Source of the DNA: Actinopolymorpha cephalotaxi | GTDB lineage: Bacteria > Actinomycetota > Actinomycetes > Propionibacteriales > Actinopolymorphaceae | NCBI RefSeq assembly: GCF_013408535.1 | Contig: NZ_JACBZA010000001.1 | Coordinates: forward strand, 4,548,850 to 4,612,849 | Direction of reading: 5' to 3' | DNA: 64,000 nucleotides | Part shown: one piece after another, positions 7,620-40,228 of the stretch | Numbering within the stretch: position 1 is the stretch's first letter | Layout of the letters: each line of letters begins with the position of its first letter | Made by a program: the position numbers and the translations under genes | The notes under the pieces: model-generated | Seen by the model: only the letters and a program-made list of their open reading frames with translations | Databases searched by the model: none | Told to the model about the DNA's origin: nothing

Positions 7620-7665
7620 CCTTCCGCATCACAGCAGGTCTCGCACCACAGCAGTTCTCGCATCA

Positions 7666-7696
7666 GGACGGCCCGCCGGATCCCGGCGGGCCGTCC
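7666..7696 (+). terminator. Perfect 14-bp-stem hairpin after the second phosphoesterase gene
   Basis: The arms 7666-7679 (GGACGGCCCGCCGG) and 7683-7696 are exact reverse complements around a 3-nt loop, 46 nt after the stop. The stem core matches the hairpin after the first paralogue, so the terminator appears to have been duplicated with the gene. Confidence 0.8.
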
Positions 7697-7734
7697 GTCG
7701 CTGTCAGGCTGCCGAACCAGTTGCCCGTCGAGCG

Positions 7735-7764
7735 TTGACGAAAGATCACGGGTGTACGTAGCAT
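7735..7764 (+). promoter_or_regulatory. Likely sigma-70-type promoter of the GH123-like gene
   Basis: A -35 TTGACG (7735-7740) and a -10 TAGCAT (7759-7764) are separated by 18 bp. They lie just after the preceding terminator and about 55 nt upstream of ATG 7818. The boxes are good for an actinomycete; no further operator is seen. Confidence 0.5.
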
Positions 7765-7817
7765 GCGGCGAGAAATGGTCACGTCCGTAACTCCGACGGT
7801 AGCGGGACAGGACGATC

Positions 7818-21763: not shown

Positions 21764-23524
21764 ATGACCATTCGATTCAAGGTCTCAGCGCTTTCACTTG
21801 TGAAACACCGGTCACGGGTATTCACCCGCCGGGCAGGTATGGCCTCGGCGCTACTGCTGGCCGTGGTGACCGGTGCGACGCCATCGGTCGCACGCGCCGC
21901 CCCGTCTCCCTCGCCGCTCGGCTTACATGTCGCACGGCACGACCACGCCGGGGCAGATGCGGTCTCCTCCCGGCACCGGGCTCGGCCGTGCGCGACGAGG
22001 CCCGCGCCGCCCTCGAACACGGTGCCCACGCCACCACCCGTCACGGCCGGCAGCGGGGTGTGGAGTTTCGTGACCGAGCCACGCCTGCATCCCATGCGGG
22101 TCACCGTCATCACCCGGACTCCGCACACGGCCCCCGGCGACATCTTCGTCGCACCGTACGCCGCGGGGAGGATGGTAGGCCAGACCGGATCACTGATCGT
22201 CGACAACGCCGGCGACCCGGTGTGGTTCCGACCACTGGCGTCGGCGAAGCTGCAGAACGCCGACTTCAGGGTCCAGACCTACCACGATCCACACACCGGA
22301 AAGGCACAACGGGTGCTGACGTGGTGGCAGGGATCCATAGCCATTCCGCCCACCTACACGAACCTCCCCATCGGTGGGGCCGAGCCCGGCGGATGTTATT
22401 ACATCGTCGACAGCCACTATCGGCTGATACGGACAGTTTTCGCGCGGCACGGATTCAACCCGGACGAGCACGAATTCACGCTTACCCGCGCGGGGACGGT
22501 GCTGTTCGTCGCCTCCAAGGCGGTGCCCATGGACCTGACACCGTACGGGGGTCCCAAGGACGGGGCCATACTCGACGCCGAGGTGCAGGAGGTCGATCTC
22601 CGGACGGGCAGGCTCGTCTTCTCGTGGGACATGCTCGACCACGTGGATCCCGCCGACTCCGAGACGCCGGCTTCGGACGCCACGAAGTCCGGTGGCGTGT
22701 GGGATGCCTTCCACATGAACTCGATCGACGAACGCGGCGGCGAACTGCTGGTCTCGGCCCGGAACATGTGGGCGGTCTACAAGATCTCGAAGTCGAGCGG
22801 CCGGATCCTCTGGCAACTCGGCGGAAAGCGGAGTGACTTCACCTTCGGGACGAACGCGGAGTTCTTCTGGCAGCACGACGCGCGTTTCCGAGCCGGCAAC
22901 AGGATCAGCATGTTCGACGACGGCTGCTGCAATCTCACCGGCGGAAGGCCCGAACAGCAGTCGCACGGCCTGATTCTCAGTCTCGACCTACGCAGGCATC
23001 GGGCAGACGCCGTACGGACCTACTACCACAAACGGGGCCTGTACTCGCCGTCGGAGGGGAACATGCAGGCGCTGCCGAACGGCAACGAGTTCGTCGGGTG
23101 GGGACAGAATCCGTACTACTCGGAGTACACCGGCGCGGGAAACTCGCAGGGCCACGGCACCGTCAACCTCGTCTATGACGCGAGGCTGGCCGGTTTCAAC
23201 TTCTCCTACCGCATCCTCCGCAACACCTGGATCGGCACGCCGCACTACCCGCCGCGCGCCGCGGCGCGGTCGAGCGCCGGTCAGCGCGTCGTCTATGCGT
23301 CCTGGAACGGGTCGACGCAGACCAGAGCGTGGCAGGTGCTGGCGGGCAGGCACGCCGACGAACTGTCGGTTGTCGTCAGACGGTACGCCCGCGTGGGATT
23401 CGAGACGGGGATACCGACCAACAGCCGGGGACCGTACTTCCAGGTGAGGGCACTCGACGGGAGAGGAAAGGTCCTGGGCACTTCGAAGGTCGTGAAACTG
23501 CGGCGGGCCGACTTCCTTCCCTAG
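21764..23524 (+). CDS. Secreted arylsulfotransferase-like (Arylsulfotran_2) protein
   Basis: 586 aa from ATG 21764 with the strong site GAGGGGGA 6 nt upstream. The N-terminus has a long basic region then ASALLLAVVTGATPSVARAA, so it is exported (possibly Tat, RR at 32-33). The body resembles PF14269: DPHTGKAQRVLTWWQG, HGFNPDEHEFTLTRAG, DAFHMNSIDERGGELLVSAR, ILWQLGGK and FWQHDARFRAGNRIS. The histidine-containing segments are the conserved family blocks. By family it would move sulfate between phenolic compounds, but many members are uncharacterised. Its stop shares a CTAG with the convergent substrate-binding gene. Confidence 0.75.
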   Translation: MTIRFKVSALSLVKHRSRVFTRRAGMASALLLAVVTGATPSVARAAPSPSPLGLHVARHDHAGADAVSSRHRARPCATRPAPPSNTVPTPPPVTAGSGVWSFVTEPRLHPMRVTVITRTPHTAPGDIFVAPYAAGRMVGQTGSLIVDNAGDPVWFRPLASAKLQNADFRVQTYHDPHTGKAQRVLTWWQGSIAIPPTYTNLPIGGAEPGGCYYIVDSHYRLIRTVFARHGFNPDEHEFTLTRAGTVLFVASKAVPMDLTPYGGPKDGAILDAEVQEVDLRTGRLVFSWDMLDHVDPADSETPASDATKSGGVWDAFHMNSIDERGGELLVSARNMWAVYKISKSSGRILWQLGGKRSDFTFGTNAEFFWQHDARFRAGNRISMFDDGCCNLTGGRPEQQSHGLILSLDLRRHRADAVRTYYHKRGLYSPSEGNMQALPNGNEFVGWGQNPYYSEYTGAGNSQGHGTVNLVYDARLAGFNFSYRILRNTWIGTPHYPPRAAARSSAGQRVVYASWNGSTQTRAWQVLAGRHADELSVVVRRYARVGFETGIPTNSRGPYFQVRALDGRGKVLGTSKVVKLRRADFLP

Positions 23525-25464
23525 CTCCCGCTCTTCATCTGGAGGTAGCCGGACTGCATCCACATCACCGGCTGGGCCGCCCCGCCGAGTCCGGTCCACA
23601 GCCACTTCTCGGAGTCGGGCGGGAACTTCGTGTACCGGCTGGTGCCGTACGCCTCGTGGAAAGCGTTGTTGTACAGCGGGAGGATCGGCAGGTCGCGGTT
23701 GATCCACCGGGCCCAGTCGTAGGTGTACTCCGCCCACTTGCTCTTCGGGGCCTGGTTCACCTGGCGGTTCAGGGTCGCGGCGATGTGCACCTTGCCCAGC
23801 CCGGGGACGTCGGCGTACGGCCCGACACCGATCGCGACGTGGCCGTGGAACTCTCCCTTGCCGTCGTACCAGATCGGGTAGTTCCACGCCGGCAGGGAAC
23901 CTTGCGCGAACGTCGCGGCGAAGTCCGCCAGCGGGTTGGGCGTGCCACCCCAGTCCATGAACCACTCGGTGACCGCGAACTGGCCGTCGAGCATCTGGTT
24001 GTAGTACGTCCCGGAGTTGACGTTCACCTCCTCGGCCTTGATCCCGAAGTGCATCAGCATGTTGGCGATGGCCAGCCCGTCCTGGTCGAACTGCGAGTTG
24101 CCCGCCTCCTCGGTGATCGTCACCTTCCACAGGTCACCCTTCGGCGTGTACCACTTGCCGTTCTTCTTCGTGAATCCCACGCTCTCCAGAAGCTGCTTCG
24201 CCTTGGCCGGGTTGTAGTTGTAGGGATTCATCTTCGCCATCTGAGCCCTGGTGATGTACTTCGGCACCGCCATCGCGTCGTTGATGCCGTCGGGCGCGAT
24301 CGCGGGCGGGTCCTGGATCAGCTTGCCGCCCATGTCCAGCTGCGTGAGCTGCTTGCGCTTGATGATGTACGCGAACGCCTGCCGGACCTCACGCAGGTTG
24401 TAGGGGTAGGTGGCCAGGTGGAACACCAGGCTCTCCTGCTGCACCGGCGACGGGATGAACACGTAGTGCCCGGTGCCCGAGGCCTTCAGCTTGTCCACCT
24501 GCGGGTCGGTGAACTGCGAGAACTCCTCGAAGTCCATGGTGCCGCCGGACAGGCCGCCGAACGCCGCGGTCACGCTCGCCGGGACGATCTGCACCCACGG
24601 GACGCGGATGTTCTTCTGGTCCCACCAGCCCATCCACTTCCTGAACAGGATTCCGCTCACGCCGGAGTTCTGGATCGTGTACGGGCCGTTCCCGATGAGC
24701 TTGTCCGGCTTGAACTTCGCCAGGTTGGTTCCCGTCGTCAAGACGGCCTTGCCTGCCGGGGAGTCCGAGGCTGCCTTGATGCTTGCCTGGGTGGGGTCGA
24801 GGAAGTTGTACGTGTGCCAGTAGCTGAGCAGCGCCTTGTCGAACCCTGCGGGGAGGAGGCTGCCGTACTGGGTGGAGGGCAACATCCAGATGGACATGAT
24901 CGAGGACATGACGTTGTCGGTGACGACCCAGTCGTGCAGCTTGACCGTCACCTGGTGGTCGTTGGGGGCCGAGAGGTCCTCGATGTCGGCCCACACCGAA
25001 CTACCGTTCGCACCTGCCAGCAGGAAGCTGTCGATCACGTCCTTCGTCGTGAAGGGCTTGCCGTCCTGCCACTTCGCACCCTGCCGCAGATCGAACGTGA
25101 TCTGGTGGCCGTCGACCTTCCAGCTGGACGCCATCTCGGGGAGGTACGGGTTGGACCCGGGACGGAGGGTGTTGGAGTAGGCGGCCAGGTTGATCAGGGA
25201 CAGGTTGAGGAACGGCTCCGGGTTCGGGCTGTACGGGTTGTAGGAGACGCCGCTGCTCCACTGCGGGTTGGCGATCCGGAACGCCGTCTGGGTCGCGGGG
25301 TACTTCGCCGGATCGACCACCGCGCTGCCCGTGGCCTTGCCGACGTCGTGTGCTCCTCCCCCACCTCCGCCTGCATCCTCACCCGAGCAGGCACCCACGA
25401 CCAGCGTGAGCGCGGCGGCCACCGCGCCCAGTGCCGCCGCCCTGCGAGACCTCGATGTCCTCAT
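23521..25464 (-). CDS. Opp/Dpp-type ABC transporter, substrate-binding lipoprotein (SBP_bac_5)
   Basis: 647 aa from ATG 25464 with GGAGGA 2-7 nt upstream. The signal peptide ends in a lipobox (LVVGAC|SGED), so it is a membrane-anchored lipoprotein followed by a glycine linker. The rest is a family-5 extracellular binding protein (DLRQGAKWQDGKPFTTKDVID, IGNGPYTIQNSG, RQAFAYIIKRKQLTQ). It is the last gene of the operon that starts at 29425. The ligand is unknown. Neighbouring catabolic genes suggest a sugar or acylated amino sugar rather than a peptide (inference). Confidence 0.9.
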   Translation of the reverse strand: MRTSRSRRAAALGAVAAALTLVVGACSGEDAGGGGGGAHDVGKATGSAVVDPAKYPATQTAFRIANPQWSSGVSYNPYSPNPEPFLNLSLINLAAYSNTLRPGSNPYLPEMASSWKVDGHQITFDLRQGAKWQDGKPFTTKDVIDSFLLAGANGSSVWADIEDLSAPNDHQVTVKLHDWVVTDNVMSSIMSIWMLPSTQYGSLLPAGFDKALLSYWHTYNFLDPTQASIKAASDSPAGKAVLTTGTNLAKFKPDKLIGNGPYTIQNSGVSGILFRKWMGWWDQKNIRVPWVQIVPASVTAAFGGLSGGTMDFEEFSQFTDPQVDKLKASGTGHYVFIPSPVQQESLVFHLATYPYNLREVRQAFAYIIKRKQLTQLDMGGKLIQDPPAIAPDGINDAMAVPKYITRAQMAKMNPYNYNPAKAKQLLESVGFTKKNGKWYTPKGDLWKVTITEEAGNSQFDQDGLAIANMLMHFGIKAEEVNVNSGTYYNQMLDGQFAVTEWFMDWGGTPNPLADFAATFAQGSLPAWNYPIWYDGKGEFHGHVAIGVGPYADVPGLGKVHIAATLNRQVNQAPKSKWAEYTYDWARWINRDLPILPLYNNAFHEAYGTSRYTKFPPDSEKWLWTGLGGAAQPVMWMQSGYLQMKSGS

Positions 25465-25472
25465 GTCTCCTC

Positions 25473-26462
25473 CTACCGTTCGGTGCTCGTCAGTTCGGTG
25501 ATCGGGGGAACGCGGTCGGGGAAGAAGCACGCGGCCCGGTGCCCGGGAGCCACCTCCGCCAACGGAGGCGCCTCACGGCAGCGGTCCTCGGCGAAGGGAC
25601 AGCGGTTGGCGAAGACACAACCGGTGCGCGCGGGCTCACCTTCGAGCCGGTGGGCCACCTCCTCGTCGCGGCGTACCTCGGCGACGTCGGGATCGGGCAC
25701 CGGAATGGCCCGAAGAAGGTGGTAGGTGTAGGGATGCCGCGGCTGGGTGATGACCTGTTCGGTGGGGCCCTCCTCGACCACCACGCCGTAGAACATCACC
25801 AGAATGCGGCCGCCCCTGGTGAAGTACCGCACCACTCCGAAGTCGTGGCTGATGAATACGAAGCTGATCTGGCGTTCCGCGCGGAACTTCAGCAGGAGAT
25901 TGAGAATCGCCACCCGCATCGAGACGTCCAGCATGCTGGTCACCTCGTCCGCGACGACCAGGCGTGGTTCGAGGCTGATGGCGCGGGCGATGGCGACCCG
26001 CTGCCGCTGCCCACCCGACAACTGGTGCGGATAGCGGTGCAGGAAGGCGGGCGTGGCGTCCAGCCCGACCTGCTGCAGGGTCTCCAGCAACCGCTTCTCC
26101 ACGGTCCGGTGCGTGGCGAGTCCGTGGCGGCGCAGGCCGTAGCCGAGGGTGGTGCCGATCGAGAGGCCGGGGTTGAGCGAGCTGTAGGGATCCTGGTGGA
26201 CCATCTGTACGTCGCGCCGCCACGCACTCCTGGCCTTGCCCCGCAGCGACCCGATGTCCTGGTCCTCGTACCGGACCACCCCATCGCTCGGCTGGGTCAG
26301 GCCGGCGATGATCTTGCCGAGCGTGGTCTTGCCGCAACCGGACTCCCCGACCAGCGCGACCACCTCGTCCGGCTCGACGGCGAGGTTCACGTCGTGCAGC
26401 ACCGGACGGTCCTTCGTGGTGGCGTACCTGTGGGTCAGGTGGTCGACTTCGAGCAGGCTCAT
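25473..26462 (-). CDS. Opp/Dpp-type ABC transporter ATPase (DppF/OppF-like)
   Basis: 329 aa from ATG 26462 inside the previous stop. Motifs: GESGCGKTT, HQLSGGQRQR, LVVADEVTSMLD (Walker B with Val in place of the usual Pro after Asp-Glu) and FISHD. The C-terminal cysteine-rich oligopeptide-transporter tail (CVFANRCPFAEDRC) is present. It energises uptake with the DppD-like partner. The D-E-V replacement of the canonical D-E-P is common enough in OppF-type proteins and does not remove the catalytic Glu. Confidence 0.9.
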   Translation of the reverse strand: MSLLEVDHLTHRYATTKDRPVLHDVNLAVEPDEVVALVGESGCGKTTLGKIIAGLTQPSDGVVRYEDQDIGSLRGKARSAWRRDVQMVHQDPYSSLNPGLSIGTTLGYGLRRHGLATHRTVEKRLLETLQQVGLDATPAFLHRYPHQLSGGQRQRVAIARAISLEPRLVVADEVTSMLDVSMRVAILNLLLKFRAERQISFVFISHDFGVVRYFTRGGRILVMFYGVVVEEGPTEQVITQPRHPYTYHLLRAIPVPDPDVAEVRRDEEVAHRLEGEPARTGCVFANRCPFAEDRCREAPPLAEVAPGHRAACFFPDRVPPITELTSTER

Positions 26463-27496
26463 CGGGCCGTGACCTCCAGCTCCTCGTTGACCACATGACA
26501 TGCGACGAGGTGGCGTCCGTCCGCGAGCAGCGGCGGCTCGACCCGGACGCAGATGTCCTGTGCCAGCCGGCAGCGTGGTGCGAACCTGCACCCCGGCGGC
26601 AGGTCGGCGAGGTTGGGCACCTCCCCGGCGATCGGCTGGACGAGGAGTCCCTTGTCCAGAACGCTCGGAATGGCGTCGACGAGCGCACGGACGTACGGAT
26701 GGCGTCGCCGCGACCCGAAGATCTCCCTGACGGTGCCCGCCTCGACCAGCCGGCCCGCATACATCACCGCGACCCGGGTGGCCATCTCGGCCACCACGGC
26801 CAGGTCGTGGGTCACGAAGATGATGGTGATTCCGAGCTCTCGGTGCAGTCGCCGCAGGATGTCGATCACCAACCGCTGGTTGAGTACGTCCAGTGCGGTG
26901 GTGGGCTCGTCCAGCACCACGACCGACGGCTTCAGCAACAGCGCCAGCGCGATGGCCACCCGCTGCTTCATGCCACCGGACAGCTGGCTCTCGAACGCGT
27001 CCCAGACGACCGCCGGTGGGAGCCGGACGAGTTCCAGCAGGTGCTCGAAGTAGGCCCGACCCGCACGGGAATCGGGGAACACCTCCGGGTGCGCCTGGAG
27101 GACGTGCTCCACGTGGTCGCCGATGGTGATCACGGGGTTGAACGCGTTCATGGCCGCCTGGAACACCATGGCGATCTCCAGGCCGAGCAGCCTGCGAAGG
27201 TCCCTGCGGCGCAGGCGTTCCAGAGCGGCACCTTTGAACCTCACCTCGCCCTCGGTCACGCGTCCCGGCGGCGGAACGATGTCGAGCAATGCGTAGGCGA
27301 GGGTGGACTTGCCGCATCCGGACTCACCGACCAGGGCGTAGATGTCGCCCGGCCGGACTGTCAGGCTCACGTTCTCCACGGCCCGGACCGCCCCCGGCCC
27401 GCTGCCGAAGGCGACGGTGAGGTTGTCGACCTCAACGATCGGCGCGCCGTCGTCGGGGTGTCGCGCGGTGGACCTGTCGTCGGCCACGTCGGTCAT
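26459..27496 (-). CDS. Opp/Dpp-type ABC transporter ATPase (DppD/OppD-like)
   Basis: 345 aa with GESGCGKST (Walker A), SQLSGGMKQR (signature), VVVLDEPTTALD (Walker B) and FVTHD (H-loop). The C-terminal CRFAPRCRLAQDIC tail is typical of OppD. It overlaps the next ATPase gene by 4 nt and follows the DppC-like permease by 16 nt, so it is mid-operon. Confidence 0.9.
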   Translation of the reverse strand: MTDVADDRSTARHPDDGAPIVEVDNLTVAFGSGPGAVRAVENVSLTVRPGDIYALVGESGCGKSTLAYALLDIVPPPGRVTEGEVRFKGAALERLRRRDLRRLLGLEIAMVFQAAMNAFNPVITIGDHVEHVLQAHPEVFPDSRAGRAYFEHLLELVRLPPAVVWDAFESQLSGGMKQRVAIALALLLKPSVVVLDEPTTALDVLNQRLVIDILRRLHRELGITIIFVTHDLAVVAEMATRVAVMYAGRLVEAGTVREIFGSRRRHPYVRALVDAIPSVLDKGLLVQPIAGEVPNLADLPPGCRFAPRCRLAQDICVRVEPPLLADGRHLVACHVVNEELEVTAR

Positions 27497-27512
27497 GTCT
27501 GCGCCTCCCTGG

Positions 27513-28364
27513 TCATTGGACCCGTAGCCGGGGGTTGAAAAGGCTGTCCAGGACCCTGGTGAGGTACACGAACGCGACCTGCAGGATGACGATCGCGGCC
27601 ATCGGGGAGAACAGGTAGAGCATGCTCTTGCTGGTGTAGAGCGCGCCCTGGTTCATCGCGGTGTTGATCATGACGCCCCAGTTGGTCCCGCTCACCGGGG
27701 CGATGCCGAGCAGGAAGAGCCCCACCTCGGCGTACATCGCCCCCGTGATGGCCAGCAGGAAGTTGATCGCCACGTACGGACCGACGTTGGGCAGCAGTTG
27801 CCGGCCGACGATGTTGGTGAGCGACGCACCCTGCAGCCGCGCGGCCTCGATGAAGTCGCTCGTGCGAAGGCTGAGTGCCTGCGAGCGCACTGCCCGAGCC
27901 AGGCCCGCCCAGGCGGTGACCGAGAGGATCAGGGCGAGGACGACCGGGCTCGACGTGCGCACCACGCTGGAGATGACCAGGATCAGCGGCAGGCCGGGGA
28001 CCGTCAGCACCACGTCGGTGACCCGCATGATGACCGTGTCGGCCGTGCCGGCGAGGTAACCACTGACCAGACCCACCACGACACCGACGAACACCGTGAT
28101 GGACGCGGCGAGTACGCCGACCTCCATGATCGGGCGGGTGCCCACGATCACCTGTGCCATGACGTCCTGGCCGAACGAGTCCGTGCCGAGCAGGTGGTGC
28201 CATGACGGCGGCAGGTATGCCTTCATCGGATCCTGCACGGTGGAGACGTGCGCGACGAGCGGGCCGAAGACGGCCATCAGCACGTAGAACCCCACCACCA
28301 CGGCCCCGGCCAGGCCGGTGCGGTCGGCCCGGGCGATGCGCCAGAAGTCACTGAGGAAACTCAT
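27513..28364 (-). CDS. Opp/Dpp-type ABC transporter permease (DppC-like)
   Basis: 283 aa from ATG 28364. It has about six transmembrane helices, the N-terminal LLGTDSFGQDVMAQVIVGTR block of OppC/DppC proteins, and the EAARLQGAS...QLLPN coupling loop (EAA motif) that contacts the ATPase. It overlaps the DppB-like gene by 4 nt. Confidence 0.9.
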   Translation of the reverse strand: MSFLSDFWRIARADRTGLAGAVVVGFYVLMAVFGPLVAHVSTVQDPMKAYLPPSWHHLLGTDSFGQDVMAQVIVGTRPIMEVGVLAASITVFVGVVVGLVSGYLAGTADTVIMRVTDVVLTVPGLPLILVISSVVRTSSPVVLALILSVTAWAGLARAVRSQALSLRTSDFIEAARLQGASLTNIVGRQLLPNVGPYVAINFLLAITGAMYAEVGLFLLGIAPVSGTNWGVMINTAMNQGALYTSKSMLYLFSPMAAIVILQVAFVYLTRVLDSLFNPRLRVQ

Positions 28365-29425
28365 ACTCCCACCCCCGGGACCGCCACCGTCTCCTCGGCG
28401 GCCTCCTTGTCCTCCTCGGCCCGGCGGGCCAGGCCGGGCTTCGCGATCCTCGGATCGATCGCGGGATACACCAGGTCGACGAAGAAGTTCGCCAGCACCA
28501 CCGACGTGGTGATCAGCAGGAAGCAGCCCATCATCACCGAGTAGTCGCGGGAGTTGATGGAGTTGATCAGGTAGTACCCAAGACCCGGGTAGCTGAAGTA
28601 GAACTCGATGAACACCGAGCCGCCGAAGAGGAAACCGACACTCAGGGCCAGTCCGGTGACCTGCGGCAGTAACGAGTTGCGGCCGACATAGGACTGTGCG
28701 ACCCGCCTGGGGCTGAGACCGCGCGACTCCGCCGCCCGGACGTACTCCGAACCGAGTACCGACACGGCGGTTCCCTTCATCGACAAAGCCCACGCCCCGA
28801 AGGACGTGATGACGAATGCCGCGACGGGAAGAACCGCGTGGTAGATGGCGCTGCCGATGAAACCGAAAGTGAATCCGGGCCGGATATTGACCGAGTAGGC
28901 ACCCGAGATCGGGAAGTAGTGATGAACATCGGTCAACAGGTAGAGCAGCACGATGGCGACCAGGTAGTTCGGCACAGCACTGAGAAACGACACCACGAAT
29001 GTCATCGACTTGGAGAAAGCGCTGTTCTGGAACGCGGCCAGCAACGCACCGACGGCGAGTCCGGTGACGAAACTGAGGACAAGTGCCGAACCCACGATGA
29101 AAATCGTCCACGGCGCGGCGTTCGCGATGACGTGGACGACACTCTGACTCGGGTCGCTGATCGACTTCCCGAGGTCTCCGTGGAGTGCGTTCCAGATGTA
29201 GCTGACGTACTGACGCCACAGTGGTTCATTCGGCGTCAGACCGTAGATCGCCTGTACCCGTTGCTGAATCTCCGCCGGCGACATGCCGCCCTGCTTCTGC
29301 AGCTGTGCTTCGAGCGCGGACATCGGATTGCCCGGCATCAGCCGGATCATGAAAAACGACAGCGACACCACGAAGTAGACAATGGCGAATGCCATCACCA
29401 ACCGTTTGACGACGTACTGACGCAT
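28361..29425 (-). CDS. Opp/Dpp-type ABC transporter permease (DppB-like)
   Basis: 354 aa, first gene of the five-gene uptake operon. N-terminal VVKRLVMAFAIVYFVVSLSF with FFMIRLMPGNPM is the standard DppB start. About six helices follow with the EYVRAAESRGLSPRRVAQSY coupling loop. An acidic C-terminal tail (RRAEEDKEAAEETVA) is longer than usual. Upstream lies a palindrome at 29482-29493 that may be the operator. Confidence 0.9.
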   Translation of the reverse strand: MRQYVVKRLVMAFAIVYFVVSLSFFMIRLMPGNPMSALEAQLQKQGGMSPAEIQQRVQAIYGLTPNEPLWRQYVSYIWNALHGDLGKSISDPSQSVVHVIANAAPWTIFIVGSALVLSFVTGLAVGALLAAFQNSAFSKSMTFVVSFLSAVPNYLVAIVLLYLLTDVHHYFPISGAYSVNIRPGFTFGFIGSAIYHAVLPVAAFVITSFGAWALSMKGTAVSVLGSEYVRAAESRGLSPRRVAQSYVGRNSLLPQVTGLALSVGFLFGGSVFIEFYFSYPGLGYYLINSINSRDYSVMMGCFLLITTSVVLANFFVDLVYPAIDPRIAKPGLARRAEEDKEAAEETVAVPGVGV

Positions 29426-29953: not shown

Positions 29954-30853
29954 ATGATGACGCAGGTGCAAGTCGCCGTCGACGTGCACACCCACCTCGG
30001 GCAGCACGGCACGCACGTGTGTGATCCGCTGGCACGCGACGAGCTCCGGGCCTGGGGCGAGGTCAGCTGGAACGTGACTCCGGAGGAGCACCGGCTCTCC
30101 GCGGAGGCGGCCGGCACCTCGATCGTGCTGGCGTTCGACGCCGAGCCGGTCGGCGTCGTCGTACCCAACGACTACGTCGCGGACACGGTCACCGGACACG
30201 ACAACCTGATCGGGTTCGCCAGCGTCAACCCCAACCGGCCCGGCGCGCCCGCCCTGCTCGACGACGCGATCACGACGCTGGGGCTGCGGGGGCTCAAGCT
30301 CGGCCCGTGCTACCAGCATTTCCACCCGCACGACCCGTCCTGCTTCGACCTGCTGGAGGTCGCCGCCCACCACGAGATTCCGGTGATCTGGCACCAGGGA
30401 ACGACGTTCACCCCGGCGGCGATCGTCGACTACGCGCGGCCCTTGCAGCTGGACCGGGTGGCGCGCCGCTTCCCGGACCTGCGGATGTGGATCGCGCATT
30501 TCGGGCACCCGTGGGCGGAGGAGGCGTTGAGTGTGATCCGCCGGCACGAGCACTTCCACATCGACGTGTCCGCGCTGGACACGCGGCCGTGGCAGCTGGC
30601 GCAGGCGCTGACGGCGGCGAAGGAGTACCGCGTGTTCGACCGGATCCTGTTCGGCACCGACTACCCGTTCTCGACTGTCGAGCGCACCGTGGCCGGGCTT
30701 CACAAGGCGGCCGGGCTGTGCCGCACGCTCGGCCTGGCCGACGTCACCGACGACGACGTGGACCGGATCTGTCAGCGGGACTCCCTTGCCCTGCTCGGGT
30801 TGGGCGTTCCCAAGGACGGCGCCACGGCGCCGGAGAGGACGGTCGCGTCATGA
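29954..30853 (+). CDS. Amidohydrolase-2 family hydrolase (lactonase-like)
   Basis: 299 aa from ATG 29954. PF04909-type metal site: VDVHTHLG (HxH), VIWHQGT (His), WIAHFGHP (His) and LFGTDYPFS (Asp), in the order of a TIM-barrel amidohydrolase. Relatives include sugar-lactone hydrolases and decarboxylases. It is the first gene of a five-gene operon in which every junction overlaps. In that setting a sugar-lactone hydrolase is the most coherent role, which is inference. Confidence 0.8.
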   Translation: MMTQVQVAVDVHTHLGQHGTHVCDPLARDELRAWGEVSWNVTPEEHRLSAEAAGTSIVLAFDAEPVGVVVPNDYVADTVTGHDNLIGFASVNPNRPGAPALLDDAITTLGLRGLKLGPCYQHFHPHDPSCFDLLEVAAHHEIPVIWHQGTTFTPAAIVDYARPLQLDRVARRFPDLRMWIAHFGHPWAEEALSVIRRHEHFHIDVSALDTRPWQLAQALTAAKEYRVFDRILFGTDYPFSTVERTVAGLHKAAGLCRTLGLADVTDDDVDRICQRDSLALLGLGVPKDGATAPERTVAS

Positions 30854-31758
30854 GCGGGATCGCGATAGGCGGGGTCGTGTGCGTGGTGCAGACGCCGTTC
30901 GACGCGCAAGGCGAGGTTGACGCCGCCACCTTCGTGCGCCAGGTGGAGTGGCTGTTCGACAACGGCGCGGACGGCGTGGCGATCGGGATGGTGTCGGAGG
31001 TGCTCCGGCTGTCCACGACCGAGCGGGACGAGCTCGCGACGTTGCTGTGCGGGGCGGCGACCGGGCGGGGTGCGTCGGTGGTGAGCGTGGGCGCGGAGTC
31101 CACCCACACCGCCGTACGCCATGCACTGCACGCCGCCGCGGCCGGCGCGGACGCGGTGATGGCCACACCACCCGCGTTGAGCCGGACCGGTGACGCGGAA
31201 CTGTTCGACTACTTCCTCGCGATCGCCGACGCCGCGCAGCTGCCGATGATCGTTCAGGACGCCAGCGGGTACGTCGGTTCGGCGCTGTCGATCGACCTGC
31301 AGGCCAGGTTGCAGGCTGAACTCACCGACCGCGTGCTGTTCAAGCCGGAGGCCCATCCGATCGGGCCCAAGCTGACCCAACTGCTGGACGCGACCGGCGG
31401 GAAGGCACGGATCCTCGAGGGAAACGGCGGCATGTATCTCGTCGACAGCTTCCGGCGCGGAGCGGTCGGCACCATGCCGGCCGGTGACCTGGTGTGGGCG
31501 CTGGTCCCGTTGTGGCGGGCACTCACCACCGGGGACTACGACCGGGCCTACCGGATCGCCGGGCCGCTGACCCAGCTGGTGTCCCTGCAGACCAGCCTGG
31601 ACAGCTTCGTCGCCATCGAGAAACACCTGCTGGTACGCCAGGGAGTCTTCACCAGCGCGGCGGTCCGCGGGCCGGTCGGTGGTGGCGTCGACGGCCGCAT
31701 GTACGCCGAGGTCGACCGGCTGGTGGACCTCCTGCGCACGGCCGTCGACCATGGCTGA
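30850..31758 (+). CDS. Dihydrodipicolinate synthase / N-acetylneuraminate lyase family aldolase
   Basis: 302 aa from ATG 30850, overlapping the previous stop. TIM-barrel Schiff-base aldolase features: VVCVVQTPFDAQGEVD (start block), NGADGVAIG, IVQDASGYVG and LFKPEAHP, where the Lys is the Schiff-base candidate. Typical DHDPS core residues around the active-site Tyr are not obvious. It is therefore probably not lysine biosynthesis but a 2-keto-3-deoxy acid aldolase or related lyase acting after the dehydratase at 33297. Confidence 0.85.
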   Translation: MSGIAIGGVVCVVQTPFDAQGEVDAATFVRQVEWLFDNGADGVAIGMVSEVLRLSTTERDELATLLCGAATGRGASVVSVGAESTHTAVRHALHAAAAGADAVMATPPALSRTGDAELFDYFLAIADAAQLPMIVQDASGYVGSALSIDLQARLQAELTDRVLFKPEAHPIGPKLTQLLDATGGKARILEGNGGMYLVDSFRRGAVGTMPAGDLVWALVPLWRALTTGDYDRAYRIAGPLTQLVSLQTSLDSFVAIEKHLLVRQGVFTSAAVRGPVGGGVDGRMYAEVDRLVDLLRTAVDHG

Positions 31759-32566
31759 GCCGCCGTCGACCACGGCTGAACCGCCGTCGTCACTTGGCGC
31801 ACCCACCGTCGCGGTGGTCACCGGCGCGGGCGGCGGCATCGGTGGCGCCTGCGCTCTCGCCCTCGCCGGGTCCCACGACACGGTGGTCTGCGTCGACCGG
31901 GATCTCGACCGGGCGCGGGAGACCGTCGCCGCGATCGAGCAGGCCGGCGGCTCGGCGGTGCCGTTCGAAACCGACGCCGCGGACCCGGCGTTCGGAGAGA
32001 AGGTCGCCGCGGCGTGCACCGCGGCCGGGAAGACCCGCTCCGCCGTGCACGCCCTCGCCCACGAGGAACACGTTCCCGCCCTCGAACTCAGCCTGGACTC
32101 GGTACGGCGCAGCTTCACCATCGGCCCGCTCGCGGCGTTCGCGTTGTTCCGCGCCCTCGCGGTCGCACCCGTCCCGCCTCCTCCGGGTGCGGCGTTCACC
32201 GTGATCGGTTCCCTGCACGAGAAGCACGCGTTCGCGCGCTGCCTCGGCTACAACGCCGCACACGGCGCACTCGGCCAGGTGGTGCGGACGCTCGCGCACG
32301 AGTGGGCCGGCCGGCGGATCCGGGTGAACGCCGTCGTCCCCGGCTGGATCGCCACCCCGGGCGAGGTCGTCCTGTACGGCGAGGACCATCTCGCCCGCGC
32401 GGGCAGGTCGTTGCCGTTCGGCGCGATGGGCGAGGTCGGCCAGGTCGCCGCGGCCGTCGCGTTCCTGTCCTCCCCCGCCGCCGACTACATCTCCGGGTCG
32501 TTCCTGACAGTGGACGGCGCGCTGTCCGTGTCCCTCGCCAGGCTGCCGGAGGGAGACCAGACATGA
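31751..32566 (+). CDS. Short-chain dehydrogenase/reductase with altered active site
   Basis: 271 aa from ATG 31751, overlapping the aldolase gene by 8 nt. The nucleotide-binding TGAGGGIG and cofactor Asp (VCVDRD) are normal. The C-terminal VNAVVPGWIATPGE and SGSFLTVDGAL are normal SDR. The catalytic YxxxK reads YNAAH, so Lys is replaced by His, and the usual NNAG is replaced by HALAHEEH. The Ser 13 residues before the Tyr is kept. It may be a divergent active enzyme or a non-catalytic paralogue. The pathway role could be sugar oxidation to the lactone. Confidence 0.8.
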   Translation: MAEPPSTTAEPPSSLGAPTVAVVTGAGGGIGGACALALAGSHDTVVCVDRDLDRARETVAAIEQAGGSAVPFETDAADPAFGEKVAAACTAAGKTRSAVHALAHEEHVPALELSLDSVRRSFTIGPLAAFALFRALAVAPVPPPPGAAFTVIGSLHEKHAFARCLGYNAAHGALGQVVRTLAHEWAGRRIRVNAVVPGWIATPGEVVLYGEDHLARAGRSLPFGAMGEVGQVAAAVAFLSSPAADYISGSFLTVDGALSVSLARLPEGDQT

Positions 32567-33300
32567 AGTACGCCTGCGTGTTCGCGCATCCCGACGACGA
32601 GATGCGCTGCCTGGGAACGCTGTTGCGGCTGCACGAGGACGGCCACGAGATCGCGGTCGTCACCCTCACCGGTGGCGACAAGGGGCTGCCGTTCTCCGGG
32701 CCGGACTCCCACGAGCGGGCGGTCGCGGTGCGGGAGGTGGAGATCCGTACGGTGGCGAAGGCGTTCGACGCGGACTATCTGTGCCTGGGCCGGGAGGACG
32801 GGTTCCTCTACGACGACGAGCCGCTGCGGCACGACCTGATCGCGGCCCTGCGTACCGTCGATCCCGATGTGGTCTTCACCCACTGGACGAACGACTACAA
32901 CGCCGACCACGTGGTGACCGCGAAAGCCGTGGTTGACACCGCGTTGTGGACCAACCTCGGCTCGTTCGAACCACACGTCCCGGCGGGCGACCACGTGCCG
33001 CGGATCTTCCACGTCGACACCGGCGCAGGGTACGGGTTCGAGGCCACCCACTTCGTCGAGCTCACCGCGGACCACGTGGCCCGCAAGGCCGAACTGATCC
33101 GGGCGCACGCGAGCCAGATGGACGTGATGCGCCGGCTGCGCGGCCACGACTACGCCGACGAGATGGCCGACTCCGACCGGGTCACCGGCGCCCGGCTGAT
33201 GGTCGCCCACGCCGAGGGCTTCCGCCCCTGCCTGGCCGAACGCCGGATTCCGTGGCCGTCCGACCTGCCCGGTCAGGTGCCGCACGCGAGCACCACATGA
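32563..33300 (+). CDS. PIG-L family deacetylase
   Basis: 245 aa. The zinc site AHPDDE (residues about 9-14) and DYNADH later give the His-Asp-His set of the PIG-L/LmbE family. These enzymes remove N-acyl groups from amino sugars or related compounds. It is fourth in the operon, overlapped on both sides by ATGA. Its presence implies an acylated amino-sugar-like substrate. Confidence 0.85.
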   Translation: MKYACVFAHPDDEMRCLGTLLRLHEDGHEIAVVTLTGGDKGLPFSGPDSHERAVAVREVEIRTVAKAFDADYLCLGREDGFLYDDEPLRHDLIAALRTVDPDVVFTHWTNDYNADHVVTAKAVVDTALWTNLGSFEPHVPAGDHVPRIFHVDTGAGYGFEATHFVELTADHVARKAELIRAHASQMDVMRRLRGHDYADEMADSDRVTGARLMVAHAEGFRPCLAERRIPWPSDLPGQVPHASTT

Positions 33301-34472
33301 GGATCACCGACGTCACTCCGTTCCTGCTGCGCGGCAACCAGACCTACGGCGCCCACGCGGGTGAGGCGGAGGCGACCGACCAGGGCGACTGGCTGCTGCT
33401 GGTGCGGGTTCGTACGGACGAAGGTCTGGAGGGCTGGTCCGACGTGGAGACCATGGGACCGGTCGCCGCCCGCGTCCTGCAGGGCAACGGGATGAGCGCA
33501 CTCGGCTTCCGTACCATCCACGAACAGCTTGTCGGCCGGGACGCCAACGACGTGGAGGCGATCTGGGACGAGTTGTACGTCGCCACCGCCTACTACGGGC
33601 GGCGCGGCGTCGCGATGCACTGCATGTCGGCGGTGGACAACTGCCTCTGGTCGATCCGTGCGCAGGCGGCCGGGGTGCCGCTTGCCCAGGCGCTCAGTGG
33701 CCGGCGGCGCGACCGGTTGCCTGCGTACGCGTCCACGCTCTTCCGGCCGACGCCGGAGGAGAACGCCGCGGCGGCGCAACGCTACGTCGACCTCGGTTTT
33801 ACCGGAGTGAAGTTCGGCTGGGGCGGCTTCGGGCTCGCCCCTGGTGCGGACCGGGACAACCTCGTCGCGCTGCGGGAGACGCTCGGACCGGAGCGGGCGT
33901 TGATGATCGACCCCGGCTGGTACGTCGAGGACGCCGGGCGGCCGCGGGTGCGGACGATGGCGGAGACGACGACGATGCTGGAGACCTTGGGCGACGCCGA
34001 GCCGTACTGGGTGGAGGACATCGTCCATCCGGAGTGCACCGAGCAGTACGCCGTACTGGCGGCCCGCTTTCCGCACCTGCGCTTCGCGGCGGGTGAGCAG
34101 CAGGCGACGATCTGGGAGCTACGGCGGCTGGTCTGCGACCACGGGATCGCCGTCGTACAACCGGACCTGTCCCGGTGCGGTGGGCTCACGGTGGCGAGCG
34201 CGCTGGCGTCCGACGCCGAGACGGCCGGAGTGGAGATCGTCACCCACTCCTGGCTGACCGACCTGCTGCACGCCTACAGCCTGCACTTCCTGTCCACGTT
34301 GCCGGAAGCCCGCTGGGTGGAGTTCAACGTCGCGCAGAGCGAGCTCAGCGCAGGTGTCGTCAACAAATCATTGACACTGGCGACCGACGGCACGGTCGCG
34401 GTGCCCGACGGCATCGGCCTGGGCGTGGACGTAGACCTCGCTTTCGTCGAGGCGCACGCCGTCGCGCCGTAG
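33297..34472 (+). CDS. Enolase-superfamily dehydratase (mandelate racemase / muconate lactonizing group)
   Basis: 391 aa. Metal ligands Asp205 (MIDPGW), Glu240 (WVEDI) and Glu267 (AGEQQ) are intact. The His317-Asp290 dyad (THSW, QPDLS) is present. The opposite-face KxK is reduced to KFG (Lys172, Gly174). That pattern fits acid-sugar dehydratases of the mandelate-racemase subgroup that use the His/Asp dyad, giving a 2-keto-3-deoxy acid for the aldolase at 30850. It is the last gene of the operon and convergent with a PhyH gene 13 nt away. Confidence 0.85.
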   Translation: MRITDVTPFLLRGNQTYGAHAGEAEATDQGDWLLLVRVRTDEGLEGWSDVETMGPVAARVLQGNGMSALGFRTIHEQLVGRDANDVEAIWDELYVATAYYGRRGVAMHCMSAVDNCLWSIRAQAAGVPLAQALSGRRRDRLPAYASTLFRPTPEENAAAAQRYVDLGFTGVKFGWGGFGLAPGADRDNLVALRETLGPERALMIDPGWYVEDAGRPRVRTMAETTTMLETLGDAEPYWVEDIVHPECTEQYAVLAARFPHLRFAAGEQQATIWELRRLVCDHGIAVVQPDLSRCGGLTVASALASDAETAGVEIVTHSWLTDLLHAYSLHFLSTLPEARWVEFNVAQSELSAGVVNKSLTLATDGTVAVPDGIGLGVDVDLAFVEAHAVAP

Positions 34473-34485
34473 CTACCGGGTCTGG

Positions 34486-35346
34486 TCAGCACTCGTCGCC
34501 GTCGGCCATCCCGAACACCGCGGCGTGTTCCTCCGCGGACGTCGCGGTCACCTCGTCCACCGTGTAGTGAAACTGCAACGCTCGCCGCCGCGTCGTCGTG
34601 TCGTTGCTCGGCGTCCCGTGCTGCAGCAGGCCGTCGAAGAACATCAGCCCGCCCGGTGGGAGGGGCACGGCCACGCCTCGGTCGACCGGCACGTTCCCGT
34701 CGCAGATCTGCAGGTCACGCAGGTGGACGTGGCGTACGGGGCCGTCGCGATGCGATCCGCGGATGATCCGCATGCAGCCGTTGTCCTCGGTGGCCGCGTC
34801 CAGCGCGATCCACACGCCGACGATCGGGGTGCCGGGAACCAGGTGGAAGAAGGCGTTGTCCTGGTGCCACGGCTTCTCCCGTCCACCACCGGGTGGCTTG
34901 AGCAGCGCCATGTCCTGGAACATCCGCGGTGCGCCGCCGAGCAGGCGAGTCACCACGTCGAGGATGCCCGGATCGTTCGCGATCGCGGCGAGGCGGGTCT
35001 CGTGCGCCGCGAACGACATGAACTTCCGCGTCACGTCGAGCCGCTGGGGCGGGGTCAACGTGTCCAGGACAGCTTCGGCCCAGGCCTCGTACTGCACGTC
35101 GGCCGGCGAGTTCGGGCGGGCGAGATCTTCCAGGCCGGCAACGGCATCACGCACCGTCTCCGGCGACAGCGCGCCGCTCACCGGGAGGAAACCGTCCCGC
35201 CGATAGCGCTTGAGTTCGGACTCGCCCACGTCCGCGAGCGACCGGACCGGCTCGGCCACCTGCGGGGTGGCGTACAGGCCGCTCGGATAGGCCGCGCCGT
35301 CCCGGTCGAACGTCGTCCTTCCCCCGCTCGTCCTTCCCCCGCTCAT
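34486..35346 (-). CDS. Phytanoyl-CoA dioxygenase (PhyH) family protein
   Basis: 286 aa from ATG 35346 (GTG 35355 possible). Fe(II)/2-oxoglutarate site: PWHQDNAFF (HxD) and LQHGTPSN (distal His), with a following RRRALQFHY Arg for 2-oxoglutarate. The N-terminal tail is Gly/Arg-rich and contains a short repeat (SGGRTSGGRTT). It probably hydroxylates a small molecule. It is downstream of a second PhyH gene with a 48-nt gap, so the two may act in sequence or on related substrates. Confidence 0.85.
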   Translation of the reverse strand: MSGGRTSGGRTTFDRDGAAYPSGLYATPQVAEPVRSLADVGESELKRYRRDGFLPVSGALSPETVRDAVAGLEDLARPNSPADVQYEAWAEAVLDTLTPPQRLDVTRKFMSFAAHETRLAAIANDPGILDVVTRLLGGAPRMFQDMALLKPPGGGREKPWHQDNAFFHLVPGTPIVGVWIALDAATEDNGCMRIIRGSHRDGPVRHVHLRDLQICDGNVPVDRGVAVPLPPGGLMFFDGLLQHGTPSNDTTTRRRALQFHYTVDEVTATSAEEHAAVFGMADGDEC

Positions 35347-35394
35347 TCCACCCACCTGTCCTCGTGTCGTCCCGGGACGTGGCCCGATAAGGCC

Positions 35395-36234
35395 TCAGCC
35401 AGAAAGTAGGCCGTCGTACAGCACCGGGTTCCGCGCGGTGTCGGGCACCTGGCCGATCTCCGTGCCCGGCATCCAGTTGCGGTCGGCTACCTGGTTGTCG
35501 TTCGCCGGCTCGGTGACCCGGATGTCGGCGTCCATGTAGATCACGGTCATCACCCGGCGCGGGATGCTGCTGTGGTTCGGCCCGGCGTGGTGGAACGTCC
35601 AGCCGCGGTGGAAGCTCGCGTCGCCGAGGGCGAACGGCTCCACGACGTTCTCGAAGTTCTGCTCGTCGACCAGCTGGTTGATCCTCGCCTCCGACTCGTC
35701 GCTGATCGCCAGGTCGCGGCCGATGGAGAAGTTGTGGCTGCCGCGGGCGAACGCCAGCGGGCCCATCTCGTACGGCGTCTCCTGCAGTGGCAGCCAGATC
35801 GTGCACACCCGGTCACTCGACAGTGGCCAGTAGTACTGGTCGGCGTGCCACGGGGTGATGCCGCCACCGGCCTCCTTGTAGAGCGCCTGGTCGTGGTAGA
35901 GCCGCACCGCGTGGACGCCGAGGAGCTTCGCGGCGATCCCGGCCAGGCGGCTGGAGTGGGCCAGCTCCTTGACCTTCGCGTTGTGTTCCCAGAGGTTCGT
36001 CACCTGCAGGAACGCCTTGCCGTAGGTGTCCCGCTCCGCGAGCGGCAGGTGCTGGGTGTTCAGCCGGATCACCTCGCCGGTCACCACCGGCTCGTACTCC
36101 GCGATGGTCCGCGGTGAGAGAACGCCCGACAGGTGGGCGTAGCCGTTCCGCGCGAAGTCGGCGGTGGCCGTCGGCGGCAACCCCTCGTAGGGAACGTCCA
36201 GCTCGGACCCCAGCGCTGCCGTCGTAGCAGTCAT
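35395..36234 (-). CDS. Phytanoyl-CoA dioxygenase (PhyH) family protein
   Basis: 279 aa from ATG 36234 with AGGTGG upstream. The metal site is WHADQYYWPL (HxD) and FHHAGPNHS (distal His). It begins with an N-terminal RNGYAHLSGVLSP block typical of the family. It is the first gene of the two-gene dioxygenase operon. It is only moderately similar to its partner, so it is not a recent duplicate. Confidence 0.85.
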   Translation of the reverse strand: MTATTAALGSELDVPYEGLPPTATADFARNGYAHLSGVLSPRTIAEYEPVVTGEVIRLNTQHLPLAERDTYGKAFLQVTNLWEHNAKVKELAHSSRLAGIAAKLLGVHAVRLYHDQALYKEAGGGITPWHADQYYWPLSSDRVCTIWLPLQETPYEMGPLAFARGSHNFSIGRDLAISDESEARINQLVDEQNFENVVEPFALGDASFHRGWTFHHAGPNHSSIPRRVMTVIYMDADIRVTEPANDNQVADRNWMPGTEIGQVPDTARNPVLYDGLLSG

Positions 36235-36397
36235 GCCACCTACTCCTCGTGTCGTGATGTGCGTGTAGCCGGTTCCAGCGTCGCAGGGCACCGGGTCGGG
36301 CACCACTCCTGCGGTGTCCAGCTCCGGCAACCGACCGGGCCCGCCGCGGGTCGAGACGTGCCGCCCGCCAGGTCCGGCCAGAGCCTAGAGTGTGCCG

Positions 36398-38323: not shown

Positions 38324-40177
38324 TCAGAACGGCGGAAGGTCGTCCTCAGCCTTCCTCGCACCCGCTGTGGCGGGTTCCGGGTCGGTGAGTGAGGGCGCTC
38401 GGCTGAGGTACTGCCGGCTGAAGGGGTCGGTGAGGACGTGTTCGCCGGGACCGGTCTGCTTCAGTTTCCAGTCCCGTTCGGTCTTGGCCTTGTGGTGGCG
38501 CGGGCACAACGGGGCGATGTTGTCCACGGAGGTTTCTCCGCCGTCGGCGTACTCGGTGTTGTGGTCCAGGTGACACGTCGCCGCAGGACGTCGGCAGGTG
38601 GTCCACACGCACCGCTGGTCGCGCGCATGCACCAGCTCTGCCTGCAGCCCGCGCAAGAACCTCGCAGGAATCGGATGCAGGTGCAGTAACCGCCCGGTCA
38701 CCGGATGCGTGACCCCGACACTGAACCTGGCTTCGGGATTGGTGAGGTTGTTCGCCACGATGCGTTCGGCGACCTCGGTGATGACCGGTCCGAACCCGCC
38801 GAGTTCCCCAGGCCGGGTGGACAGTCCCATGAGCGTGGTCAACGGGATGTTCAGCTGGATCTTGGCGCGCGCTTTTATCGGCCCCCAGCTCGGCTGCGAG
38901 GAGGACCAGGGTGGCCGTGGTGGTGTCAGATCGTCCACGGGCGGATCGGGCGGATCGGCCGACTCGTCGGGTCGGCGGTTCTGCTGGGGAATCTGCCCCG
39001 CCGCGGGATGACCGGTGGCCGCAGCGGCACCGTCAGGGATGGTCGTCTCCTCGGTGGCTGCTTCCTTTCCGGCTTCATGTGCGGCGGTGTCGTGAACGGT
39101 CGAGCAGTTGCAAGGGGTGTAGTCGGCTGTGGCGTTCGCGGTCCCGGCGGGAGCGCAGTCACCGCAGCCGCAGTGGGCGTTGTGCAGGTCGTGGTCGGGG
39201 TACCGGTGAACGGCACAGTGCCCCTGCTCGCTCTGCTCCTGCCGAGACTCTTCCTGCGACGCCTCGTCCTGCTCAGACTGGTCTTGCTCTCCTTGGTTCT
39301 GCATGCTCTGAGCCTGCTCGGTCTCGCCGTGCGTCTGATCGGCTTGCGTAGGGGCGGAGCAGTCGATGATGTCAGCCATGCCGGTGAGCAGGCTCGCGGC
39401 GACGTCGGCCCGGAGTTGGCCGAGTTTGCGGGGATCGCCGCCGGACTTCACCGCACGGGCGATCGCGTCGATGTTGCCGTATGCCTCTGCGGCCTGATCC
39501 GCGGACAGTCCTCGGATGCCGAGGTCGGCGACACCGTCGACCGAGGGCCAGATCGCGACGTCACGGTCCGAACGCTTGGCCTTGTGCCGTTTCGCGGCTG
39601 CGTCGGGGTCTGCCCTGAGGACCTCCGCCTCCACCTTCGCCCGCAACAACCCACCCCGCAGTTGGAGCACCTTCGGAAACAGGGCGGCCTCGATCGCATC
39701 CCACAGGTCAGGTTTGGCGTCGGTGATCCGGTCGACGATGACGCGGACCTCATCGAACTCCAGAAGTCCGCCTGCCAGAGCCTCATCCACCCGCGGCAGC
39801 CTGGGCAGCGTGGTCGCTATCGACACGTACTGGGACGCGCGGTAGGCGGTCCACCCCAGCAACGGCTCCAGGAGCACAGGAGTCATCGAGTCCGCGGTGA
39901 ACCTGCGCCCGCCCGGACCGGTACGCATACCCGGATCAGCGTGGGCAAGCTCGCTCACCCCCGTCAAACAGCGGGACTCCACCCAGCAGCTCAGCCGCCG
40001 TGCCCCCTTGACGTACTCCTCCAACTCCCACCCGTCACACGCGGCCAGGTCGACCGAGGCGATCGCCGCCGCCAACTCCGGCCCACCCGGCAGATCCTCA
40101 AACCCCGCAGGCAGCACCCCGCGAGGACCGGGCTCGCCGCCCAGGCCCTCGCCGAAGCACTTGCCGTCGTCGCTCAT
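38324..40177 (-). CDS. DUF222 / HNH endonuclease domain protein with low-complexity insert
   Basis: 617 aa from ATG 40177. DUF222 (13E12-type repeat region) covers about residues 20-270. A Gln/Glu/Ser-rich low-complexity stretch (about 290-320) follows, then a Cys/His-rich insert (CGCGDCAPAG, CNCSTVHD). The C-terminal HNH nuclease is CVWTTCRRPA, CHLDHNTEYADGG and APLCPRHHKAK, with zinc cysteines and the catalytic His. Such genes are multi-copy in actinomycetes and behave like mobile or selfish elements; no partner element is seen here. The cysteine insert is not usual for the family. Confidence 0.85.
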   Translation of the reverse strand: MSDDGKCFGEGLGGEPGPRGVLPAGFEDLPGGPELAAAIASVDLAACDGWELEEYVKGARRLSCWVESRCLTGVSELAHADPGMRTGPGGRRFTADSMTPVLLEPLLGWTAYRASQYVSIATTLPRLPRVDEALAGGLLEFDEVRVIVDRITDAKPDLWDAIEAALFPKVLQLRGGLLRAKVEAEVLRADPDAAAKRHKAKRSDRDVAIWPSVDGVADLGIRGLSADQAAEAYGNIDAIARAVKSGGDPRKLGQLRADVAASLLTGMADIIDCSAPTQADQTHGETEQAQSMQNQGEQDQSEQDEASQEESRQEQSEQGHCAVHRYPDHDLHNAHCGCGDCAPAGTANATADYTPCNCSTVHDTAAHEAGKEAATEETTIPDGAAAATGHPAAGQIPQQNRRPDESADPPDPPVDDLTPPRPPWSSSQPSWGPIKARAKIQLNIPLTTLMGLSTRPGELGGFGPVITEVAERIVANNLTNPEARFSVGVTHPVTGRLLHLHPIPARFLRGLQAELVHARDQRCVWTTCRRPAATCHLDHNTEYADGGETSVDNIAPLCPRHHKAKTERDWKLKQTGPGEHVLTDPFSRQYLSRAPSLTDPEPATAGARKAEDDLPPF

Positions 40178-40228
40178 GTGTTCGAGTCTACCGGACAAGA
40201 TCGGCTTCCGCTCGCGGGAAACCCCTTA

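Follow-up and report, generated by a model that had tools for sequence, protein, structure and literature searches.

The third gene of a five-gene operon in Actinopolymorpha cephalotaxi encodes a short-chain dehydrogenase (SDR) that retains the catalytic Ser and Tyr of its family and has lost both the Lys of YxxxK and the Asn of the catalytic tetrad (Table 1; the window is the whole 64,000-nucleotide stretch of DNA that was analysed). Because the loss is common to an entire clade from a small set of soil actinobacteria, and because the gene lies beside the same deacetylase gene in all loci examined, the protein is more probably a functional enzyme whose active site has been rebuilt than an inactive one. 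SDRs rank with the largest enzyme families, and few of their residues are as constant as the Lys of YxxxK; a clade with Ser and Tyr, and neither Lys nor tetrad Asn, thus offers a clean test of the Lys–Asn arm of the proton relay.

Table 1 Operon genes, divergent transporter and SDR motifs in the window
Feature	Position	Strand	Remarks
Dipeptide-type ABC transporter	23521..29425	-	Divergent; SBP_bac_5 with OppB, OppC, OppD and OppF (named by eye)
Amidohydro_2 protein	29954..30853	+	Candidate sugar lactonase (inferred)
DHDPS-family protein	30850..31758	+	Best solved match L-2-keto-3-deoxyarabonate dehydratase
SDR with YxxxH	31751..32566	+	271 aa; 5' end overlaps DHDPS stop, 3' end overlaps PIG-L start
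TGAGGGIG	31820..31843	+	Gly-rich cofactor motif, residues 24–31, kept
HALAHEEH	32048..32071	+	Residues 100–107; HALA occupies the NNAG columns
Gly125	32123..32125	+	Column of the catalytic-tetrad Asn
S154-L155-H156	32210..32218	+	Catalytic Ser present; His at +2, as in glucose dehydrogenase S145-V-H147
Y167-N-A-A-H171	32249..32263	+	Catalytic Tyr present; His instead of Lys
PIG-L/LmbE-type deacetylase	32563..33300	+	
Enolase-superfamily (MR/MLE) protein	33297..34472	+	Candidate sugar-acid dehydratase; top NCBIfam match galactonate dehydratase, below cut-off

Active-site residues and fold of the SDR

The reading frame is uninterrupted, and its translation carries the motifs TGAGGGIG, HALAHEEH, GSLHEKH and GYNAAHGAL. 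Profile matches are those of a classical SDR (PF13561, 122.2 bits against a cut-off of 27, E 3.4e-35; PF00106, 83.6 bits against 26.6), and the fold, TGxxxGxG and catalytic Ser and Tyr agree with that assignment; YxxxK, NNAG and the tetrad Asn are missing. None of the best 25 of 191 NCBIfam matches reached its cut-off, the glucose 1-dehydrogenase model NF005559 scoring 122.1 bits (cut-off 215).

A sequence-only reading of this DNA had proposed that the catalytic Lys is His (YNAAH), that the Asn of NNAG is lost and that the cofactor-binding parts are normal. Alignment bears out all three points. Residue 171 (codon CAC, 32261–32263) falls in the Lys column, a true substitution and no gap artefact; HALA fills the NNAG columns; and TGAGGGIG is present, with G25, G28, I30 and G31 invariant in 16/16 aligned clade members. 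Numbering runs nine ahead of Bacillus glucose dehydrogenase throughout (an offset counted by hand), such that residues 103, 125, 154, 167 and 171 correspond to the NNAG Gly, Asn116, Ser145, Tyr158 and Lys162. The available text on glucose dehydrogenase gives the catalytic tetrad as Asn116-Ser145-Tyr158-Lys162 (PMC4633474), of which the SDR keeps only Ser and Tyr. The tetrad Asn, distinct from that of NNAG, is Gly in 14, Ser in one and Thr in one of the 16 aligned clade members. The earlier account of the substitution was therefore right but incomplete, having missed this loss, the conserved EEH and SLH motifs and the pairing with PIG-L described below.

The host genome (6.86 Mb) encodes 49 PF13561 SDRs at E <= 1e-15, the window SDR included. 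The other 48 loci yielded 51 aligned segments (a few being partial repeats of a neighbour); 46 carry the Tyr, every one of them with Lys at +4, and five are without Tyr. Lys is likewise kept in 28/28 distant SDRs (alignment A2), a sign that the change is seldom tolerated. Halohydrin dehalogenase-type SDRs have a Ser-Tyr-Arg triad and have lost the Gly-rich motif, a signature the clade does not share: its Gly-rich motif is intact and its residue 171 is His or Gln. A candidate second group, in which tblastn segments from Acidimicrobiia appeared to read YVASH, was rejected. One such locus (L050) reads YVASKHGV when translated through, with Lys present and a gap having misled the reading; the remaining segments are taken as the same gap effect.

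Glu105, Glu106 and His156 align with Glu96, Asn97 and His147 of glucose dehydrogenase. Among the 51 same-genome segments Glu is never found at 105 and His at 156 only three times, and neither occurs in any of the 28 distant SDRs; given this rarity, the two seem to belong to a substrate pocket of the kind found in glucose dehydrogenase and not to the common SDR pattern. The alignment would place E105, E106, H107 and H156 in the pocket. The resemblance may be convergent, since, among solved proteins, the nearest in sequence is the Leifsonia alcohol dehydrogenase LnADH and not glucose dehydrogenase, and the tree described below does not join the clade to a glucose dehydrogenase-like SDR from the wider phylum (L120).

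An AlphaFold2 model built on A2 (39 sequences; pLDDT 93.6, pTM 0.90) best matches LnADH among solved structures (7v1q, Z 34.1, rmsd 1.8 over 243 residues), followed by L-rhamnose 1-dehydrogenase (7do5, Z 33.1) and glucose dehydrogenase (3ay7, Z 32.8); Z lies at 32–34 across the 50 matches listed. As modelled, the fold is ordinary, and only the active-site residues are unusual. LnADH, Bacillus glucose 1-dehydrogenase (1gee, 3ay6) and the clade have in common the fold (residues 18–261), the Gly-rich motif, Ser, Tyr and the PGW-I-x-T region, and glucose dehydrogenase additionally shares Glu at NNAG+2 and Ser-x-His with the clade. The clade differs from both in Lys to His/Gln, tetrad Asn to Gly/Ser/Thr, NNAG to a HALA-type sequence and a conserved EEH.

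Conservation and distribution of the clade

Across the 17 clade members, that of the window included, residue 171 is His in 16 and Gln in one, and Lys in none. The substitution is thus fixed among homologues, and same-operon orthologues carrying YxxxK, which would have told against the sequence-only reading, number 0/17. Our alignment of the clade (A1, n=16) has His in 15 and Gln in one, L109 from the family-level relative G007; it omits the frameshifted L031 and four loci whose contigs are, by length, the same as those of included ones (L021, L022, L027 and L029, with L104, L103, L108 and L107, respectively). Invariant in 16/16 are Glu105, Glu106, His107, Ser154, Leu155, His156, Tyr167, Asn168, Trp199 and Glu205, and Asp49 at the end of beta-2 is invariant in the aligned members as well. 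Several codons of invariant residues vary synonymously, and dN/dS is 0.10–0.29 among five Actinopolymorpha copies.

Two members depart from this pattern. L109 (9320–10075, minus strand) reads YNAAQ and retains S154, Y167, E105, E106, H107 and H156, its EEH and SLH motifs being unchanged. The 17th member, L031 from Fodinicola feengrottensis, carries His171 and, at 107, Gln in place of His (AYEEQS, GSLHAS, YNAAH). At ~6001–8571 of that locus the SDR and enolase-type genes each match in two overlapping pieces, as if frameshifted through decay or assembly error.

In a tree of 79 SDRs the 16 intact members group together (100/99), the Gln-bearing L109 branching as sister to the other 15, all with His; the bootstrap was not fully settled. 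A single clade implies, on this tree, that Lys was lost once, before its lineages split. Members share 53–90% identity with the window SDR (39% in one case) and occur in 17 genomes including that of the window, from Actinopolymorpha, Kribbella, Actinocrispum, Frankia, Glaciihabitans, Fodinicola, Pseudonocardiales MAGs and G007.

Profile searches recovered the clade in 6/8 family genomes (E <= 1e-45), 11/391 order genomes (E <= 1e-50) and 2/394 class genomes (E <= 1e-60; the window genome and G073). The family genomes without a clade SDR are the congener G005 (95% complete), where PIG-L is absent too, and G006. At phylum level 2/396 genomes gave matches (E <= 1e-50), and that in G590 (L120) proved to be a canonical glucose dehydrogenase-like SDR with YAATK. 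No intermediate combining EEH with Lys was seen in the class, family, order or phylum searches, the class, order and phylum ones scoring the best six candidates per genome, a depth at which distant intermediates may escape. Scanning 84,980 species with six exact peptide patterns returned 11 loci of at least 53% identity, all actinobacterial by title, among the 80 loci kept. All 164 plasmid records fell below 60% identity, the best of the 10 matches listed reaching 33%. In the open literature we found no paper on the clade or its operon, and none pairing 'YxxxH' with 'short-chain dehydrogenase'.

Operon, function and mechanism

The operon runs in the order amidohydrolase, DHDPS family, SDR, PIG-L, enolase superfamily, tightly packed with overlaps of a few bases. 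The PIG-L deacetylase is the constant partner, being the next gene after the SDR in 20/20 loci from 16 genomes besides the window's. Order-wide, clade SDRs (E <= 1e-50) and PIG-L clade proteins (E <= 1e-30) occur in the same 11/391 genomes; these come from three genera and are therefore not independent events. SDR and PIG-L distances correlate with r 0.93, the highest of the four partners tested. The PIG-L protein belongs to the deacetylase family by profile (PF02585, 93.4 bits, cut-off 28.2), and its six solved matches include the LmbE-related 2ixd and diacetylchitobiose deacetylases. The metal site of PIG-L proteins consists of AHPDDE and a downstream His. Here A8, H9, D11, D12, E13 and H116 are invariant in 16/16, and the Pro of AHPDDE varies. 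So constant a partner hints at the substrate of the SDR.

The enolase-type gene is present in 17/20 homologous loci; in the remaining three (L107, L029 and L028) PIG-L stands at the contig end, and G048 has an enolase-type copy at the end of another contig. At E <= 1e-50 enolase-type genes occur in 12/54 relatives, ten of which carry the SDR clade and two of which (G008 and G052) do not. Amidohydrolase and DHDPS genes accompany the SDR in 12/20 loci (in L106 at just 32–36% identity); not being found in the other eight, these steps are not tied to the SDR. The enolase-type, DHDPS and amidohydrolase genes have pairwise distances that correlate at 0.95–0.99 with one another and at 0.52–0.62 with those of the SDR.

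Taken together, the operon genes fit an oxidative sugar route, with a candidate lactonase, an enolase-superfamily dehydratase and a DHDPS-family enzyme. Non-phosphorylative sugar pathways comprise an aldose dehydrogenase, a lactonase and an acid-sugar dehydratase, their genes often clustered with an ABC transporter as here (available text of PMC6336799); the present operon adds a PIG-L deacetylase to that scheme. A further likeness is to the oxidative chitin pathway of the ong cluster, in which an oxidised amino sugar is deacetylated en route to 2-keto-3-deoxygluconate (PMC9537276, available text). There the deacetylase is OngB, putatively of D-aminoacylase type, followed by the deaminase OngC and KdgK, where the operon here has PIG-L; the text of that source mentions neither PIG-L nor enolase, and 'dehydrogenase' occurs in it twice. 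The clade could lead to an actinobacterial sugar or amino-sugar pathway for which the open literature gave no paper.

Related loci without the clade show what else can fill the dehydrogenase slot. Of 246 class genomes, six have a DHDPS match: four without the clade (G164, G175, G251 and G275; homologues at 43–52%) and, with it, the window genome and G073. Beside its homologue (51–52%), G164 has a similar transporter, a canonical SDR (SSVH, YEMTK) and a DUF4432 protein. G175, within the same identity range, has a zinc dehydrogenase and an SMP-30 lactonase, with an IlvD/Edd dehydratase on the other strand (above the NF004784 cut-off, below that for L-arabinonate dehydratase), which looks like a full oxidative sugar route. 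In G251 and G275, where few genes were called, the window SDR gave no match in the stretch read; the simple gene caller relies on high third-position GC, and its yield was low in L204 and L205. A dehydrogenase in this slot in two of four related loci counts towards a redox role, and the clade SDR is most simply read as serving the dehydrogenase step in a route of this type, one that also includes a deacetylase.

The reading we favour, at somewhat better than even chances, is a functional SDR, probably dependent on NAD, for the oxidation of a sugar within an oxidative non-phosphorylative pathway; the gene neighbours make an amino or N-acetylated sugar the likeliest substrate. Asp at the end of beta-2 favours NAD in SDRs. 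Catalysis is supported by the invariance of Ser154 and Tyr167, the retained cofactor motifs, the low dN/dS and the fact that the new polar residues have themselves become invariant. The pathway would proceed from dehydrogenase to lactonase, deacetylase and dehydratase, with a DHDPS-type last step.

Mechanistically, Tyr167 would stay the acid–base, and His171 may do what Lys normally does, binding the 2'-OH of the nicotinamide ribose. Lys normally also lowers the Tyr pKa, an effect that could here come from His156, the Glu/His loop or a substrate amine. The model for His171 is SimC7, a simocyclinone ketoreductase of low similarity to characterised ketoreductases, whose His112 replaces Lys and hydrogen-bonds the nicotinamide ribose 2'-OH; H112A/N/Q changes strongly reduce or abolish activity (PMC5039031, available text). 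SimC7 shares with the clade His at the Lys position and a retained Ser, and is active. It differs in having Ile for Tyr, with a substrate-assisted mechanism proposed, whereas Tyr167 of the clade is invariant, making Ser-Tyr-His a different combination. Since SimC7 also lacks the Tyr, it is a precedent for His holding the cofactor, not for Tyr working without Lys. Counting against the favoured reading is L109, whose Gln at 171 is a change harmful in SimC7. The converse case is BcSDR from Burkholderia cenocepacia, where, in the portion of the account available (PMC11614110), a catalytic residue is again replaced and the replacement conserved within its lineage, with Tyr to Leu and Lys kept; in the clade Tyr is kept and Lys lost. 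Lys to His has a published precedent, and the fold and role of the clade SDR look familiar.

Bolder, and in our view unlikely, is that the whole Asn–Lys relay arm has been replaced. A substrate amine made by PIG-L might stand in for the Lys ammonium, held by Glu105 and Glu106, or Glu105-Glu106-His107, His156 and His171 might form a new catalytic or metal site.

Three alternatives were weighed. The protein might be a non-redox enzyme on an SDR frame, binding NAD and carrying out dehydration, epimerisation, lactone opening or a lyase reaction through Tyr167, His156, His171 and Glu105/106. Relay Asn and Lys are indeed both gone, with an ionisable cluster conserved in their stead, and the operon already has several candidate steps of an acid-sugar route; yet TGxxxGxG and the beta-2 Asp are retained, and the dehydrogenases of G164 and G175 occupy the same slot, leaving this reading improbable. 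We think it more doubtful still that the SDR is mechanistically ordinary, with His tolerated for Lys in the same reaction, slower or pH-shifted, and the conserved neighbours binding substrate only: the protein is classical in fold and over most of its sequence, and an active SDR with His at this position is known (available text of PMC5039031), but Lys is kept in all Tyr-bearing same-genome segments and all distant SDRs compared, and the tetrad Asn is altered as well. The sequence-only reading had offered a different proton relay, which our data favour, or a non-catalytic subunit, which they do not; a cofactor-binding pseudoenzyme that stabilises or regulates the adjoining deacetylase would suit the constant pairing, co-occurrence and top distance correlation with PIG-L and the loss of 2/4 tetrad residues, but is the least probable of all, as Ser154 and Tyr167 would have been free to drift yet are invariant in 16/16, new polar residues turned invariant, and L109, changed at 171, still keeps the rest of the set.

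Genes flanking the operon

The ABC transporter of L023–L026 and L030 is of the same type as that of the window, at ~25–43% identity and in the opposite orientation relative to the enzymes; on these grounds the enzyme set may have been kept while its transporter was swapped for another.

Beside the enolase-type gene, L105, L108 and L109 encode proteins of 872–916 aa with above-cut-off matches to the GH20 catalytic domain and GH20b, together with Big_5 and two DUF4082 stretches. Their GH20 scores are 63–72 bits (cut-off 22.3; the search covered a minority of loci), and they are possible glycosidases feeding the pathway.

Facing the operon end at window positions 34486–36330 (minus strand) are two adjacent PhyH-family dioxygenase genes, ~25–28% alike where they cross-match. 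The pair lies near the operon in four Actinopolymorpha loci, the window included, and was not seen in the L103 stretch. Further along, at 38324–40198 (minus strand), a 624-aa open reading frame has a Gln/Glu-rich low-complexity middle and a C-terminus that, by eye, resembles an HNH nuclease.
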